Shown piece by piece: positions 2,881 to 52,349 of a DNA stretch of 64,000 bases. The DNA is taken from positions 2,986,001 through 3,050,000 of the forward strand of contig NC_019701.1 in assembly GCF_000317065.1 (NCBI RefSeq), written 5' to 3'. A program made the position numbers and the translations under genes. The stretch is from Pseudanabaena sp. PCC 7367. GTDB taxonomy: Bacteria > Cyanobacteriota > Cyanobacteriia > Pseudanabaenales > Pseudanabaenaceae. The notes beneath the pieces were generated by a model. It saw nothing but the letters and a program-made list of their open reading frames with translations, had not been told where the DNA came from and ran no database searches. Position 1 is the stretch's first letter, and each line of letters starts with the position of its first letter.

Positions 2881-5800
2881 ATGTCTAGCCCTGATGCCGA
2901 AGCCCAACTCCAACAAGAACTGCGCCACCTGTTTGAGGTAGACACGCAAAAGTATTTGCAACTCTATGTCGATACCCTGGCACAGCTTAGCGATCGCACC
3001 TGGAAGGAAGATATCCAGCAGATCTATCGCTCTGTGCACACCGTCAAAGGCGGTGCAGTTACCGTTGGTGCCGAGGCAATTTTGCTAGTGGCAACCGCAT
3101 TAGAGGATTTGCTTTCCGATCTGCGCTATCTCGATCAGGCTCCTCCCCTAGCAGATGGTGAACTTAAAAATGTTTTGCAAGAGGGCGGCGAATTATTGGT
3201 GGCTAGTGTACAGCTAGAAGCCAGTAGTGCCGCGATCGTGGTGCAGCGGATCAATGATTTACGCACCAATGTACAGCAGCGTTATTTGCCGGATTGGAGC
3301 GAGCAGAGTCAGCTATATCAGGAGTTTGCCGAGCAGGGCTTTGATCTGGTGGTATTAGATCTAGACATGGCGCTAGAGCAATTGCCAGCACAGGGTGAAG
3401 TAGCTGCTGAAGTAATCGATGTGGCGCAGCAAACCATGACCCAATTGACCCAAATTGGCGCAGAGATGGAATTAGCCCAGGGCTGGCAAGCATTGTTGGC
3501 TCAAAGCAAGCATATATTCGATCGCCCTGATTGCAACCATTGGCGGCAAACCTGGCCAGAATACCTCCAGCATTTAAAGGAATCAGCCAAAAACGGTGGC
3601 AAAGAAGTAATTAGCCAAGTTTCAGAAGCAACGATTAGCGCACCAAACTTGATTCAGACCGAGGAAGCGGTTACGCCGATCGCATTTGCCCAGACTAATG
3701 CCCAGACTAATACGGCGATCGATCCAGCCGCAGCGGAATTACTAGAACTATTCCGGCTGGATACCCAAAAAGACATCAATACCTACTTTCGTACCGTTGA
3801 TAGCCTCAGCGAAACCACCTGGCAGCAGGATATCCAACAGCTATATCGCTCGATCCATACAATCAAAGGTGGTGCCGTAACTGTCGGTGCTGATGCGATT
3901 TTGCAGACTGCCAAGGTATTTGAGGATCTGCTCTCTGATCTGCGTTATGCCGAACAAGCTCCACCCCTGGCAGATGGCAACCTCCAGGAGATTTTGCAGG
4001 AATTAGGGGAATTACTGGTCAGTGCGCTGCAAATGGGAGCAGAGCGATCGCCCGATGCAACGGTGGCGCGGATTCAACAATTGCATCAGCAGGTCAGCAG
4101 TACCTACCTGGCGGAAATCGATGCACAAAAGCAACTGGCGATCGAGTTTGCGAATAATGGCTTTGATCTGGTAACGCTGGATCTAGAAATGGGTGTCGAG
4201 CAGTTGCCAGCAGCAGGGGATGTACCAGAAAAGGCGATTGAGACTGCCACCCAAACAATTGCCCAGCTCCGTGAAATTGGCGATGATCTTCAGTTTGCCA
4301 GCGATTGGCAAGCGTTACTCAATCAAGCTGAATCATTTGCCACCGACGCAAATCAAAATAATCAAACCTGGCAACAGGAATGGCCAACCAGGCTCAAACA
4401 ATTAAAAGAATGCGCCCGCAATGTCGGTAAACTACCTCAAAAATCTAAGCCAGTCACCCCAGCACTACCAGAGCCTGAGGTGCCAGCCGCTAAACCAATG
4501 GTCACCCTTACCCGGCCAACCACAAATGCCCCTGGCCAGTTGCCATTGCCGCCCAAGCCACTGCGCCAATCAGCGAAGTCGGCCACTACGCCCGAAACTA
4601 GACCTGCTGCGGAAGTCCAAATTCCAGTACCCCTGGAACGGCTCGATCGTTCTTCTCAATATTTAATCGAAACCTTGATGGCTACCAGGGCAACCCAGGG
4701 TTTTTATCAACAGGTATATGCCCAACTGGTGCCGCTAGTGGCGCTGGCTCAAGACGGGGTGCGTTATATTACTCAACTGCGGGAAGTACAGGATGATTTT
4801 GCGCTCACAGAAACCAATAATGATCCGGCTGGCAGCCCCCAGGTGGAGCGTTATCGCCAGGGCTATACGGCAATTAATCGCTTGCTGGAAATTAGCTTAC
4901 GCCTAACTGAACTAGGCGCAGAAACAGGCGAAGCCGCCCGCCGCACGATCGAAAGTATCGAATCGATCGATCGCAGTTTGCGGGGTTTACAACAAACGAT
5001 CGAAGAAAGTCGCCTGGTACCGTTTGAATCTCTTGCTTTGCGAGCCAGGGGCATCCTGCGGGATTTAACCATTCGGGTTGGCAAACCGGCACGCCTGGAA
5101 GTAATTGGTGCAAAGTTGGAATTAGACGCAGGCACCTTGCGTAATCTGGAACCAGTATTATTACATCTAATTCGGAACGCCTATGACCACGGCATTGAAG
5201 CCGCCGAGGAGCGCAGTCGTCTGGGTAAACCAGCCACAGGCAGAATCGAACTCAGTCTGGTGCGGCGCGGCAGTCTGTTTGTGCTAACGATTACTGATGA
5301 TGGGGGTGGCATTGATCCAGAGCAAATTACCAAAGCCGCGATCGCCAAGAAGCTTCCCCTCACCGATACCAGTAGCCCGGATAAACTTCTCGCTGTGATC
5401 TGTCAGCCAGGATTCACCTCCACCACTGCTGTTAGTGATATTTCGGGGCGGGGCGTAGGAATGGATGTGGTGCAAAGTCAAATCCTGGAAATGGGTGGTC
5501 AACTCAGTTTGCGTACTCAATTAAACGTGGGTAGTAGTTTTGTGATGCAGCTTCCGGTGCCACATTTATTTGTGCGCTGTATGTTGCTCCAGGCGGGCGA
5601 TCGCACCTTTGCAGTTCCTACTTCTGAAGTGTTCACCACCATGTTGCTCGGTGACCTATTGTGGCAAAAAACTACACCTTCCCAAGCGCCGCTGTATCCA
5701 ATCACGGTAATGGAAGAGACTGGACCCGTCCCGGCTCTAGACCTGAGCCAATATTGGCAAGGTATCCCCAACCCACGTAGTGCCATACCCACAGCGATCG

Positions 5801-6504
5801 CAGTGCGCACCAAGCGGCCTGATAGTTTGGAAGGGATCTGGCTGGTGGCAGATAATATGCTGGGGCAAAGTGATTTGCTCGTCAACTCATTACCAGATCC
5901 ACTGTTTGCACCGATCGGTATGATCGGCGTAAGTTTGCAATCCGACGGTAGGTTGATTCCAGTGATCGATGCGCCTGCGCTCATTGAAGCCTTGCTGAGT
6001 CAAGCCAGTGGTGATCTGGTGGTTACCCAGCCTGAGACTGAAGTTACCAAAACTGCAGCGATTGCCGGAGATATGTCAGGGCTGCGTGCTCGTCAGATTC
6101 TGGTGGTGGATGATGCTGCTTTGATGCGTCGCCGCCTGGAGGGTAGCTTGTCTGGGCAGGGCTATAGTGTGGTGACCTGTAGTGATGGTTTGGAGGCGTG
6201 GCAATGGTTACAAGCCCATGTCCCACCTGCGCTTGTGATTACAGATATTGAGATGCCAGGAATGGATGGATTTACGCTGATCGATCGCTGCCGTCAATCG
6301 GGTTTGCAAATGCCGATCCTGGTGGTTTCTTCGCGGTTAGCGGAAGAATGGTCAAAGGAAACGCAACGATTGGGGGCGACGGATTATTTAACCAAGGGGT
6401 TCACCACGCCAGATCTGCTCGAAAAAGTTGCTACTCTAATTGAAGAAGCTGCTGAGCAATCTGAGCAATTGGGCGATCGCCAACCCGCACCGCTGAATTC
6501 GTGA
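2881..6504 (+). CDS. CheA-like hybrid histidine kinase, two HPt domains and C-terminal receiver
   Basis: Central kinase of the chemosensory operon (PilL/HmpE/PixL type). Order: HPt 1 with phospho-accepting His53 in YRSVHTVKGG; HPt 2 with His326 in YRSIHTIKGG; Pro-rich linker (about 515-575); dimerisation helices; HATPase with N-box HLIRNAYDHG (761 onward), G1 DDGGG (806 onward) and G2 GRGVGMD (about 857); CheW-like regulatory domain (about 885-1035); receiver domain with VDD at 1076-1078 and phospho-acceptor Asp1122 in TDIEMPGMDG. The N-terminal 230 residues are a tandem duplication: both copies share TWxxDIQQxYRSxHTxKGGA, DLLSDLRY, QAPPLADG and a C-terminal WQALL-to-LKE(S/C)A(K/R)N stretch. 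It follows the receptor by 210 bp on the same strand. The role is certain at family level; the stimulus (light, surface contact or chemical) cannot be read. Confidence 0.92.
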   Translation: MSSPDAEAQLQQELRHLFEVDTQKYLQLYVDTLAQLSDRTWKEDIQQIYRSVHTVKGGAVTVGAEAILLVATALEDLLSDLRYLDQAPPLADGELKNVLQEGGELLVASVQLEASSAAIVVQRINDLRTNVQQRYLPDWSEQSQLYQEFAEQGFDLVVLDLDMALEQLPAQGEVAAEVIDVAQQTMTQLTQIGAEMELAQGWQALLAQSKHIFDRPDCNHWRQTWPEYLQHLKESAKNGGKEVISQVSEATISAPNLIQTEEAVTPIAFAQTNAQTNTAIDPAAAELLELFRLDTQKDINTYFRTVDSLSETTWQQDIQQLYRSIHTIKGGAVTVGADAILQTAKVFEDLLSDLRYAEQAPPLADGNLQEILQELGELLVSALQMGAERSPDATVARIQQLHQQVSSTYLAEIDAQKQLAIEFANNGFDLVTLDLEMGVEQLPAAGDVPEKAIETATQTIAQLREIGDDLQFASDWQALLNQAESFATDANQNNQTWQQEWPTRLKQLKECARNVGKLPQKSKPVTPALPEPEVPAAKPMVTLTRPTTNAPGQLPLPPKPLRQSAKSATTPETRPAAEVQIPVPLERLDRSSQYLIETLMATRATQGFYQQVYAQLVPLVALAQDGVRYITQLREVQDDFALTETNNDPAGSPQVERYRQGYTAINRLLEISLRLTELGAETGEAARRTIESIESIDRSLRGLQQTIEESRLVPFESLALRARGILRDLTIRVGKPARLEVIGAKLELDAGTLRNLEPVLLHLIRNAYDHGIEAAEERSRLGKPATGRIELSLVRRGSLFVLTITDDGGGIDPEQITKAAIAKKLPLTDTSSPDKLLAVICQPGFTSTTAVSDISGRGVGMDVVQSQILEMGGQLSLRTQLNVGSSFVMQLPVPHLFVRCMLLQAGDRTFAVPTSEVFTTMLLGDLLWQKTTPSQAPLYPITVMEETGPVPALDLSQYWQGIPNPRSAIPTAIAVRTKRPDSLEGIWLVADNMLGQSDLLVNSLPDPLFAPIGMIGVSLQSDGRLIPVIDAPALIEALLSQASGDLVVTQPETEVTKTAAIAGDMSGLRARQILVVDDAALMRRRLEGSLSGQGYSVVTCSDGLEAWQWLQAHVPPALVITDIEMPGMDGFTLIDRCRQSGLQMPILVVSSRLAEEWSKETQRLGATDYLTKGFTTPDLLEKVATLIEEAAEQSEQLGDRQPAPLNS

Positions 6505-6575
6505 GTTTAGGTGGATTCTAGGTAGATTTAGTGATTAAGTTAAGTTAGCCACGTAGGAGAAACGCCAATCTTGTT

Positions 6576-7001
6576 ATGCCTGAACCATTCCGCCTGTTTG
6601 TTAAACCACCCGTTGCCACCGAAAAATTAATTCTGGTGCGATCGGATAAACTCTATTTGGCGCTACCGGTTAAGGTGGTGCGGGAAGTGTTGCAGGGCGT
6701 AGCGGTAATCAAACGCAACAATCGCAATGTCACGCTCTATCAGGAACAGGCCGTACCAACGATCTGGGGTAAGAGGCAATGTCCCACTGTCGCCAAGACC
6801 AATGTGGTGATTGTGCGCACTGAGGCGCTGAAGGGTGGGCTGTTTGCGATCGCTAGCGCGAAAGTGCCTCAACTGGCTTCGGTGGCGGAATCAGAATGGG
6901 TGGCGGCAGATGCTTTGCCGGGGATCTGGCAAACCAATGGTAAGGGGTATGAAAAGAATGGCAAGATTTATACTTATACTACGGGTCTGGAACGGAAATA
7001 G
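6576..7001 (+). CDS. small CheW-like protein, degenerate
   Basis: A 141-residue protein 71 bp after the CheA-like kinase on the same strand, so probably its last operon partner. Residues 17-40 (LILVRSDKLYLALPVKVVREVL) read like the first strands of a CheW domain, where a regulator protein normally has 'the Ala-Leu-Pro ... V-x-E-V-L' pattern; later strands (VVIVRTEALKGGLFAIA) fit the second CheW sub-domain. The match is weak and the C-terminus (GKGYEKNGKIYTYTTGLERK) is unlike CheW. It may be an adaptor that scaffolds receptor and kinase, or only a lineage-specific protein. ATG start at 6576; no strong Shine-Dalgarno, only AGGAGA about 20 bases upstream. Confidence 0.6.
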   Translation: MPEPFRLFVKPPVATEKLILVRSDKLYLALPVKVVREVLQGVAVIKRNNRNVTLYQEQAVPTIWGKRQCPTVAKTNVVIVRTEALKGGLFAIASAKVPQLASVAESEWVAADALPGIWQTNGKGYEKNGKIYTYTTGLERK

Positions 7002-7010
7002 GCTGGATCG

Positions 7011-7643
7011 CTAACTGCTAGCTGGGGGAGTTTTGATCAGCGATCGCAATACCAACCCACTTAACACGCCATACACAGTAGCAGTAACTAAGCGCATCAC
7101 CCAGAACAAAATATTTATATCCACAATATTTGGGTTAGCACTATACAACCATACATCAATCAAAAGCCGGCCACCAAATAAAACCGTCTGGGTAGGAATC
7201 CATAGATGTGCAGATTTGATTTTGCCTTTTAGGGCAAAGCTTTGGGCTATTCCCACCCCCGCTCCCAGGATTAAGAATGGCATTGTTAATTCAAAATAGA
7301 AGATAAATTCAAAATAGAAGCTACCGATCGCCCTGTAGAAAATAATCCCAAAACCAACGATCGCTCCTAAGCAAAAACCTGCTGCGGTTAACCAACTCCA
7401 TCCTTTCACCGTTGGCAAAATTCTTTTCAGAGCTTGCCATTGTGCCCTACCCAGGATGTATGCACCAATGAACATGACTGGCGGAGCGACAGCGATAGTT
7501 GCATTCAGGAGGGTTTGACTGCTGGCGTTTTTGAACATCACAAAACTAATCGCAAAGGCCAGAATCACCCACAGGTTAACCAGCAAAACCCCGATCACAT
7601 TGGCGATCGTCCAGCGCTCAATAAAAGAAGTGTCTATTTGCAT
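7011..7643 (-). CDS. multispanning membrane protein, tandem paralogue 1
   Basis: Unrecognised integral membrane protein of 210 residues with about five membrane segments. It is a paralogue of the gene at 7693-8286: both begin M-x-I-x-x-F-I-x-RWTIANVIG, both carry G(R/K)AQW-x-x-LK-x-x-(L)P near residue 75, both have LWIPTQ, and both end in TAVYG(V/L)LSGLVLRSL. I place the start at 7643 and not at the upstream ATG (7664), because the 7643 start aligns with the paralogue and is preceded by the same GAGGACATAACC ribosome-binding segment; the upstream ATG belongs to the reading of a degenerate copy. The QW-x-x-LK motif is seen in several cyanobacterial membrane proteins of unknown role. Function unknown; low HIP1 and AT-rich composition compared with the neighbouring kinase gene. 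Confidence 0.75.
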   Translation of the reverse strand: MQIDTSFIERWTIANVIGVLLVNLWVILAFAISFVMFKNASSQTLLNATIAVAPPVMFIGAYILGRAQWQALKRILPTVKGWSWLTAAGFCLGAIVGFGIIFYRAIGSFYFEFIFYFELTMPFLILGAGVGIAQSFALKGKIKSAHLWIPTQTVLFGGRLLIDVWLYSANPNIVDINILFWVMRLVTATVYGVLSGLVLRSLIKTPPASS

Positions 7644-7645
7644 GG

Positions 7646-7690
7646 TTATGTCCTCATTGTCCATCGTTTAATAAAAGTATCTATTCGCAT
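7646..7690 (-). pseudogene. 14-codon remnant of a third paralogue
   Basis: Between the two membrane-protein genes, the minus strand has its own GAGGACATAACC ribosome-binding segment and ATG (7690), then reads MRIDTFIKRWT and runs at once into MRT-stop. The first eleven residues match the N-terminus of the downstream paralogue (MRINPFIKRWT); the last residues and stop match the C-terminus RT-stop of the 197-residue paralogue, including the AGGACATAACC that follows. It therefore looks like a middle copy that lost everything between its start and its end by internal deletion. It could still be translated as a short leader peptide coupled to the gene at 7643, whose ATG lies two bases after its stop. 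Confidence 0.7.
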
Positions 7691-7692
7691 GG

Positions 7693-8286
7693 TTATGTCC
7701 TCACTAGCGATCGCAATACTAAACCACTAAGTAAGCCGTAAACTGCGGTGACAAAGATTAGCAAGATGAAAAAGGTTAATATCCCGTTTATGTAGATATG
7801 GTAAAAGTTAGCGATCCGGATAAAATAAAAGATTTCAATAAAACTTAACGCCAATAGTAGTGATTGTGTAGGAATCCACAAGAACGATTTTTTGAATTTG
7901 TTTGGCAAGACACATGTTTGCACCATACCGATAAAAGCCCCAGTAAGGATGATTGCAATTAAAGCCACAAAAGCAGAACCCTGGTTGAAGTAAAAGATTC
8001 CAAAACCTATAGCTCCACCAGCCGAGTAACCAAGACTGGTTGCACAGCCCCATGTCTTAATATTTGGAATAAGTTCTTTAAGCCCCCACCATTGTGCTTT
8101 GCCCAAGATATAAGAACCGATGATGAGTACAAATGGACTGATAATCATCAGAAGAAACATTTGAGTCCACTTGTCAGCAAAAAGTGCTGGAATTAGCGAA
8201 GAGGTCAATGCTACGAACAAATAGGCCAAGCAGCTACCAATCACGTTTGCGATCGTCCAGCGCTTAATAAAAGGATTTATTCGCAT
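7693..8286 (-). CDS. multispanning membrane protein, tandem paralogue 2
   Basis: Unrecognised 197-residue membrane protein, first gene of the minus-strand tandem pair. Four to five hydrophobic segments (about 12-35, 42-62, 77-125, 145-190), with conserved GKAQWWGLKELIP and LWIPTQS. Start ATG at 8286 has AGAGGACATAACC just upstream, the same ribosome-binding segment seen before the two downstream copies. Its own last codons (GTG AGG ACA TAA) supply the ribosome-binding segment for the next start, so the copies are translationally linked. It diverges from rlmN, which starts 192 bases away. No catalytic motif is visible; function unknown. Confidence 0.75.
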   Translation of the reverse strand: MRINPFIKRWTIANVIGSCLAYLFVALTSSLIPALFADKWTQMFLLMIISPFVLIIGSYILGKAQWWGLKELIPNIKTWGCATSLGYSAGGAIGFGIFYFNQGSAFVALIAIILTGAFIGMVQTCVLPNKFKKSFLWIPTQSLLLALSFIEIFYFIRIANFYHIYINGILTFFILLIFVTAVYGLLSGLVLRSLVRT

Positions 8287-8478
8287 GGTTATGTCCTCTG
8301 ATCGATTAACCCTTAAATACTGGGGGAATTACCTGTGATACCTTTGAACCTATCGGTAAAACCGCTAAAAAAGTTAGCAAAATGTGACAGTTAGCCAACT
8401 GGTACGTGGCGATCGGCTAAGCCACTTGCTACCATATAGATTCACCTTCACCCGTTGCCGCCCATAAAATCAGCCACT

Positions 8479-9543
8479 ATGACTAATACTACCGCCGCAA
8501 AACCAGCCAAGCCATTACTAGGGCGATCGCAAACCGAGCTAACCGACTGGATCATGGCTCAGGGGCAGCCCAAATATCGCGGTAAACAACTCCATAACTG
8601 GCTGTATCACAAAGGGATTCATAACCTGCAAGAAATTACCGTTTTCCCCAAAACCTGGCGACAGGAAATGGCAGAAACCGTGGTGGGGCGATCGCAAATT
8701 CATCACCAGGTACAGACTAAGGATAAGACGCTTAAACTGCTGCTAGAGCTAAGCGATGGCGCGATCGTGGAAACTGTGGGCATTCCCACCAGCAAGCGTC
8801 TGACTGTGTGTGTATCGTCGCAGGTTGGTTGCCCGATGGGTTGTCATTTCTGCGCCACGGGCAAGGGCGGCTACGATCGTAATCTGGAAATCCATGAGAT
8901 TGTCGATCAAGTATTGACAGTGCAAGAGCAAATGGAACGACGGGTTAGCCATCTGGTATTTATGGGCATGGGCGAGCCATTGCTAAATGTGGAGAATCTG
9001 GTAGGTGCGATCAAATTGCTCAATCAGGACATTGGCATCGGTCAGCGAAATATAACCGTTTCCACCGTGGGTGTGCGCGATCGGATTCCCCAACTTGCCC
9101 AACATCACCTGCAAGCTACCCTGGCGGTAAGCCTTCATGCTCCCACCCAGGAACTTCGCCATGAGTTAATCCCTTCCGCCCAAACCTATCCGATCGAGGA
9201 TTTATTAGCCGATTGCCGCGATTATGTGGAAATTACAGGCCGCAGGATCAGCTTTGAATATACCTTGCTGGCTGGCGTGAATGATTCGCCCCAACAGGCA
9301 CAGCAATTAGCCAAACTAATTCGCGGTTTCCAAAGCCACGTCAATTTGATTCCCTATAATCCGATCGCTGATGCTGATTTCAAGCGTCCCCGCCCCGAAG
9401 CAGTGCAAACTTTCTTAGATATGCTCATCAGTATGAATGTGGCGGCTAGTGTGCGCCATACCAGGGGGATCGAGGCTGATGCAGCTTGTGGGCAGTTGCG
9501 CGGCACCCACGAAAAGTTAGCGAAAGCCAGCGATCGCACCTAA
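8479..9543 (+). CDS. rlmN: 23S rRNA (adenine2503-C2)-methyltransferase RlmN
   Basis: Radical SAM enzyme that methylates C2 of A2503 in 23S rRNA, and in many bacteria A37 of some tRNAs. The radical SAM cluster motif CxxxCxxC is CPMGCHFC (Cys118, Cys122, Cys125), followed by ATGKGG. GEPLLN, the SAM-binding GMGEP loop and the conserved C-terminal cysteine that carries the methyl intermediate (Cys337 in AACGQL) are all present. Length (354 residues) is normal. I prefer ATG 8479 over the in-frame TTG at 8455, because the family starts just before the LLGRS/LTDWI region and the extra eight residues look non-coding. Single gene, convergent with the flavoprotein at 9638. Confidence 0.95.
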
Positions 9544-33293: not shown

Positions 33294-33305
33294 GCAATCA
33301 GATAT

Positions 33306-33353
33306 AACAAATTAAATAACAAATTAAATAACAAATTAAATAACAAATTAAAT
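33306..33353. repeat. 12-base tandem repeat, four copies
   Basis: Four perfect units AACAAATTAAAT between the lipoate ligase-like gene and the end of the giant glycosyltransferase gene. Non-coding. Confidence 0.9.
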
Positions 33354-33398
33354 AAAGTCAAATTAAGTGAGGAAAATAAAAAGACCGTGAGCGTTGAG

Positions 33399-52022: not shown

Positions 52023-52170
52023 ACGCTGTGACCTTCTATTCCCCTAACCGGCATCATGACTAAACTAAAATTTTTTAATGTCTAGCTATTGGTCTGGTGA
52101 TATCAAATTATTAATTCTCAAATTCTTGATTGATAATCAAGCTACCCGCAATTTCAATATTTACTAACTA

Positions 52171-52210
52171 TTTCTATCTATTTCTATCTATTTCTATCTA
52201 TTTCTATCTA
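52171..52210. repeat. 10-base tandem repeat, four copies
   Basis: Four perfect units TTTCTATCTA (52171-52210), one helical turn apart, 25 bases before the 19-base array. Confidence 0.9.
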
Positions 52211-52235
52211 TTCGGTGGTGGCTCCACATTTAAAT

Positions 52236-52349
52236 TTGGTTACAGGAACAATACTTGGTTACAGGAACAATACTTGGTTACAGGAACAATACTTGGTTAC
52301 AGGAACAATACTTGGTTACAGGAACAATACTTGGTTACAGGAACAATAC
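52236..52349. repeat. 19-base tandem repeat, six perfect copies
   Basis: Six contiguous perfect units TTGGTTACAGGAACAATAC. No spacers, so not a CRISPR. Located 214-327 bases upstream of the GAF-sensor start. Confidence 0.97.

Follow-up and report, generated by a model that had tools for sequence, protein, structure and literature searches.

Two adjacent paralogous membrane protein genes in Pseudanabaena sp. PCC 7367 are separated by a 47-nt unit that consists of a ribosome-binding box and the beginning of a gene. They lie in the window, by which we mean the whole 64,000-nucleotide stretch of DNA that was analyzed (NC_019701.1, positions 2,986,001 to 3,050,000). With moderate confidence, we favor tandem duplication of a 47-nt start block, combined with translational coupling, as the explanation. 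The middle unit is most likely an ordinary short duplication within a coupled gene pair, real and locally unusual. If so, duplication of a gene start would be tolerated in an operon, as the stop overlaps the ribosome-binding box and the new frame is thereby closed at once, and this would provide a simple route to coupled upstream mini-frames. The effect is local and modest.

Three start sites and their junctions

The gene pair is on the minus strand, between a plus-strand chemotaxis-type cluster (2881-7001), whose large gene encodes Hpt, ATPase, and response-regulator domains, and a plus-strand rlmN (8455-9543), with radical SAM and RlmN_N domains. The features of the locus are as follows.

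8287..8298, minus strand: first box, GAGGACATAACC, ahead of gene 1 (sequence scan; no upstream gene remnant detected)
7693..8286, minus strand: gene 1, a 197-aa membrane protein ending in LVRT-stop (open reading frame list and sequence)
7691..7702, minus strand: second box, GAGGACATAACC, in which gene 1 ends (V-R-T-stop) and which serves the mini-frame as ribosome-binding box (sequence scan)
7656..7702, minus strand: 47-nt middle unit, made up of the box and 35 nt of gene start (repeat search; 89% identical to the gene 1 start)
7646..7690, minus strand: mini-frame of 14 codons, MRIDTFIKRWTMRT-stop, with the stop falling inside the gene 2 box (translation)
7644..7655, minus strand: third box, GAGGACATAACC, which is the end of the mini-frame and the ribosome-binding box of gene 2 (sequence scan)
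7011..7643, minus strand: gene 2, a 210-aa paralogue ending in LIKTPPASS-stop, with no box at its end (open reading frame list and alignment)
7288..7323, minus strand: 18-nt tandem duplication inside gene 2, two copies (repeat search; 94% identity)

The first-pass annotation had described the two long frames as tandem paralogues and had pointed to three GAGGACATAACC-ATG starts in a row; both descriptions hold. The two proteins are 41% identical, and exact matches to GAGGACATAACCATG on the minus strand number three (8298-8284, 7702-7688, and 7655-7641). Allowing up to two mismatches also gave three sites, whereas 100 shuffles gave 0.14 on average, and across the 4,885,680 bases of the genome the 12-mer GAGGACATAACC is found three times, always at the gene 1/gene 2 locus. 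The triple occurrence is real and beyond chance. A 23-mer spanning the box and the first codons had no copy beyond these three sites at up to three mismatches, and a 94-base query matched only the middle locus itself and the start of gene 1. In viral contigs the 15-mer was present in 90 stretches, with one match each among the 80 listed.

The two junctions are built alike. Gene 1 ends with GTG AGG ACA TAA, followed by CC and the ATG of the mini-frame; the mini-frame ends with ATG AGG ACA TAA, followed by CC and the ATG of gene 2. The stop-to-start spacing is therefore +2 nt in both cases (TAA-CC-ATG). The repeats are spaced 596 and 47 nt apart, and because both numbers leave a remainder of 2 on division by 3, each unit closes in the box of the unit that follows. 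The mini-frame is a complete short frame: it has both a start and a stop, and GAGG lies 8 nt ahead of its ATG as a plausible ribosome-binding site. The annotation had also stated that the last codons of one copy supply the ribosome-binding segment of the next, which is the case where gene 1 and the mini-frame end, +2 nt from the following start; the first box, however, does not belong to the end of a gene, and gene 2 ends without a box. A gene remnant upstream of the first box was not found, as local alignments to the paralogue C termini were matched by 10% and 68% of shuffles and an anchored comparison by 26%.

An in-frame ATG at 7664 on the minus strand, within the mini-frame, would extend gene 2 by seven codons (MDNEDIT-M..., 217 aa). 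This start has no preceding ribosome-binding box, and automatic annotation may pick it.

Searches with the gene 1 and gene 2 proteins found no family in Pfam or NCBIfam at an E value of ≤1, and the one hit among solved structures (E value of 0.14) is not meaningful. A structure model computed from the two sequences has six helices at a mean pLDDT of 54.5, which is low confidence. As far as this evidence goes, the proteins appear to be six-helix membrane proteins with two similar halves.

Origin of the middle unit

We compared gene 1 and gene 2 at the third positions of aligned codons. These agree at 10 of 11 sites in the first 11 codons and at 64 of 183 outside them (Fisher's exact test, P = 0.0003), where agreement is near random; with Met and Trp codons left out the figures are 8/9 and 61/180 (P = 0.0015), and with an alternative gap placement in the codon alignment they are 11/12 and 63/182. 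Among 10,000 codon permutations, a first window this alike arose at a frequency of 0.0007 and any such window at 0.03. Since the third-position likeness is confined to the first 11 codons, the start block was copied, homogenized, or constrained as a unit. The repeated block coincides with the block kept alike between the two genes. Judged from the sequence, this start block would be either homogenized between copies or constrained as translation-initiation DNA.

By the codon table, the middle block differs from the gene 1 block at five positions and from the gene 2 block at six plus a codon indel; the gene 1 and gene 2 blocks differ at five positions plus a codon indel. The three blocks are thus roughly equidistant from one another, and for this reason we rejected a recent simple copy of one neighbor's start.

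In the sequence of events that we favor, a 47-nt start block, comprising the box GAGGACATAACC, the ATG, and 32 further bases, would have been duplicated in tandem between the two paralogous genes. The duplicate would end at the start of the next box, so that the TAA in that box closes the frame after 14 codons; closure follows automatically from this end point. The start block would then have been homogenized between copies rather than held by constraint on the DNA, although constraint on translation-initiation DNA could alone explain a conserved block, a point against the favored explanation. The 18-nt repeat inside gene 2 is a second tandem duplication, which indicates that short tandem duplications have occurred at this locus. 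It lies in the FYFEF-IFYFEL region and adjoins the longest gap in the gene 1/gene 2 alignment.

The first-pass annotation had read the middle frame differently, as a paralogue-type N terminus joined to a paralogue-type C terminus by deletion of a middle copy. The first half of this description stands, as the 47-nt unit matches the gene 1 start at 89% identity, but the C-terminal RT-stop is the gene 2 box read in frame. The deletion itself is unsupported in the form proposed. The box (12 nt) and the gene start (35 nt) account for the full 47 nt of the middle unit with no residue left, so that none of its bases can be assigned to the interior or terminus of a third gene. Moreover, the deletion is not needed, because a single 47-nt duplication gives the same sequence in one step. 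We stress that this is an argument from economy and not proof, since both histories leave the same geometry. If the duplication history is right, a beginning and end that resemble a paralogue do not by themselves mark a short frame as what is left of a deleted gene.

Stated fully, the deletion history is that an array of three paralogues lost ∼550 nt of its middle copy, joining codon 12 to the next box. We regard this as unlikely, yet it deserves weighing. It would require two events, as a further complete copy must first be gained and then cut back precisely to the box, versus one for the duplication, and the genome has just two complete copies plus a single distant paralogue. In addition, the genes have diverged too far outside the block (64/183) for the closeness of the middle block, unless the whole block was constrained or homogenized. 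In its favor, beyond an end product of the same geometry, the middle N terminus is a mosaic that shares R2 and K8 with gene 1 and D4 and T5 with gene 2. Furthermore, the middle block carries three changes not shared with either gene, each of them synonymous, as in a gene selected for most of its life. About 1% of random triples would be so, although the argument rests on three changes, which may have arisen in either direction. This pattern leans toward deletion and counts against a bare duplication, as a bare duplicate needs no such pattern (∼0.01 by chance). The changes suggest protein-level selection on the middle frame, either in the past or at present.

The same three changes could also be read as the trace of a leader, a 14-codon frame kept to couple or regulate gene 2 whatever its origin, in which the peptide or its codons matter. 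The completeness of the frame, its ribosome-binding box, and the +2-nt spacing to the next ATG are in keeping with this idea. Against it, three changes are very few, and coupling of gene 1 to gene 2 would exist without a mini-frame. RNA folding around the boxes is likewise ordinary (z scores of −1.42, −0.41, and −0.01), which also counts against the favored explanation, and no Rfam match to a regulatory RNA was found up to an E value of 1. We consider a selected leader rather improbable; it is compatible with either origin and not exclusive of them, and we assessed it as a separate emphasis.

Proposed coupling and comparison with known systems

Under the duplication history, a single RNA probably spans both genes and the mini-frame; scans for promoters and terminators gave no excess over shuffles. 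A ribosome finishing gene 1 would restart at the mini-frame and then at gene 2, since on halting at the TAA in a box it would sit 2 nt from the next ATG. The mini-peptide would have no function of its own. A review describes coupling as most efficient at stop-to-start distances of −4 to +3 nt and gives the delivery of ribosomes by short upstream frames as a proposed mechanism (PMC12548453); the +2 nt at both junctions is within this range.

Three known arrangements resemble the locus. One is ORF27 of iraD in Escherichia coli, a short upstream frame coupled to the gene (PMC5574718); it too is short, has a ribosome-binding box to itself, and has a stop adjoining the next start. Here, in contrast, the spacing is +2 nt, the frame lies between two paralogues, its sequence repeats the start of these paralogues, and coupling is predicted from the arrangement.

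A second likeness is to mycobacterial interspersed repetitive units (MIRUs), which are mobile, insert at start codons, and remain coupled (PMC12548453). Both are short repeated units at a start codon, with a small frame coupled, here by prediction, to the gene that follows, and their insertion costs little expression. Unlike MIRUs, which are present at many loci and use a −4-nt overlap of stop and start in the same account, the 47-nt unit is found at one locus, has a +2-nt spacing, and bears no sign of mobility.

The third is ordinary tandem gene duplication followed by divergence. The two paralogues are adjacent, in the same orientation, and 41% identical, as such a history would leave them, but their first 47 nt are far more similar than the remainder and are present a third time. 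A literature search for duplicated start segments found nothing.

A bolder extension of the duplication history treats the 47-nt block as a self-closing start module, made up of a box, an ATG, and a frame stopped by the box of the next copy. Any copy number would then keep the downstream genes coupled, and recombination would keep the module alike while the genes diverge, making it a single-locus analogue of a MIRU, born from a gene start. We offer this as speculation and would be surprised if it proved correct.

Distribution of the paralogues and other repeats

No relatives of gene 1 or gene 2 were found in a set of 57 other genomes, and none of the other 37 genomes from the family or order has the locus; the family and order sets are identical, at 38 genomes each, and contain no second genome from this genus. 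The rlmN gene, which lies beyond gene 1, is present in 35 of the 38 genomes. In the flanks examined for 29 of the 34 relatives (L020-L048, ∼1.5 kb on each side), neither paralogue was seen, and the pair is accordingly peculiar to this genome among those examined.

At the class level, a profile search of 388 genomes identified 13 besides the source genome, with one distant match each. When the 13 loci (L006-L018) were searched by tblastn at an E value of ≤0.01, gene 1 or gene 2 matched in 10, and the tandem pair was seen in none. The distant relatives inspected by eye shared an N-terminal R/QW motif and two G-x-x-Q-W-like repeats. Some of these relatives are C-terminal portions of larger proteins, and signaling proteins may use the family as a membrane module. 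Long proteins with such a C-terminal part are encoded at L007 (1-1968), L017 (1480-3270), and L010 (1453-2838); two of them, by eye, start like protein kinases.

Searches of wider collections for protein relatives gave 106 and 27 pattern matches in genome contigs and 40 in viral contigs, none of which was confirmed, and no match in plasmid DNA. The rlmN protein was not found in viral contigs, a result with no bearing on the start-block question.

Several other repeats were noted. In the source genome, a distant paralogue of gene 1 and gene 2 lies beside a series of identical repeats with regular spacing and differing spacers (L005, 2450-3500), which, from its translated repeats, looks like a CRISPR array. 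In the window, a 19-nt repeat in six perfect copies (TTGGTTACAGGAACAATAC) occupies 52236-52349, just past an array of 10-nt repeats at 52158-52212, and a perfect 12-nt tandem repeat (ATAACAAATTAA) runs for 4.3 copies at 33304-33355. There are also numerous GCGATCGC sites, which we take to be a feature suggestive of a cyanobacterium.
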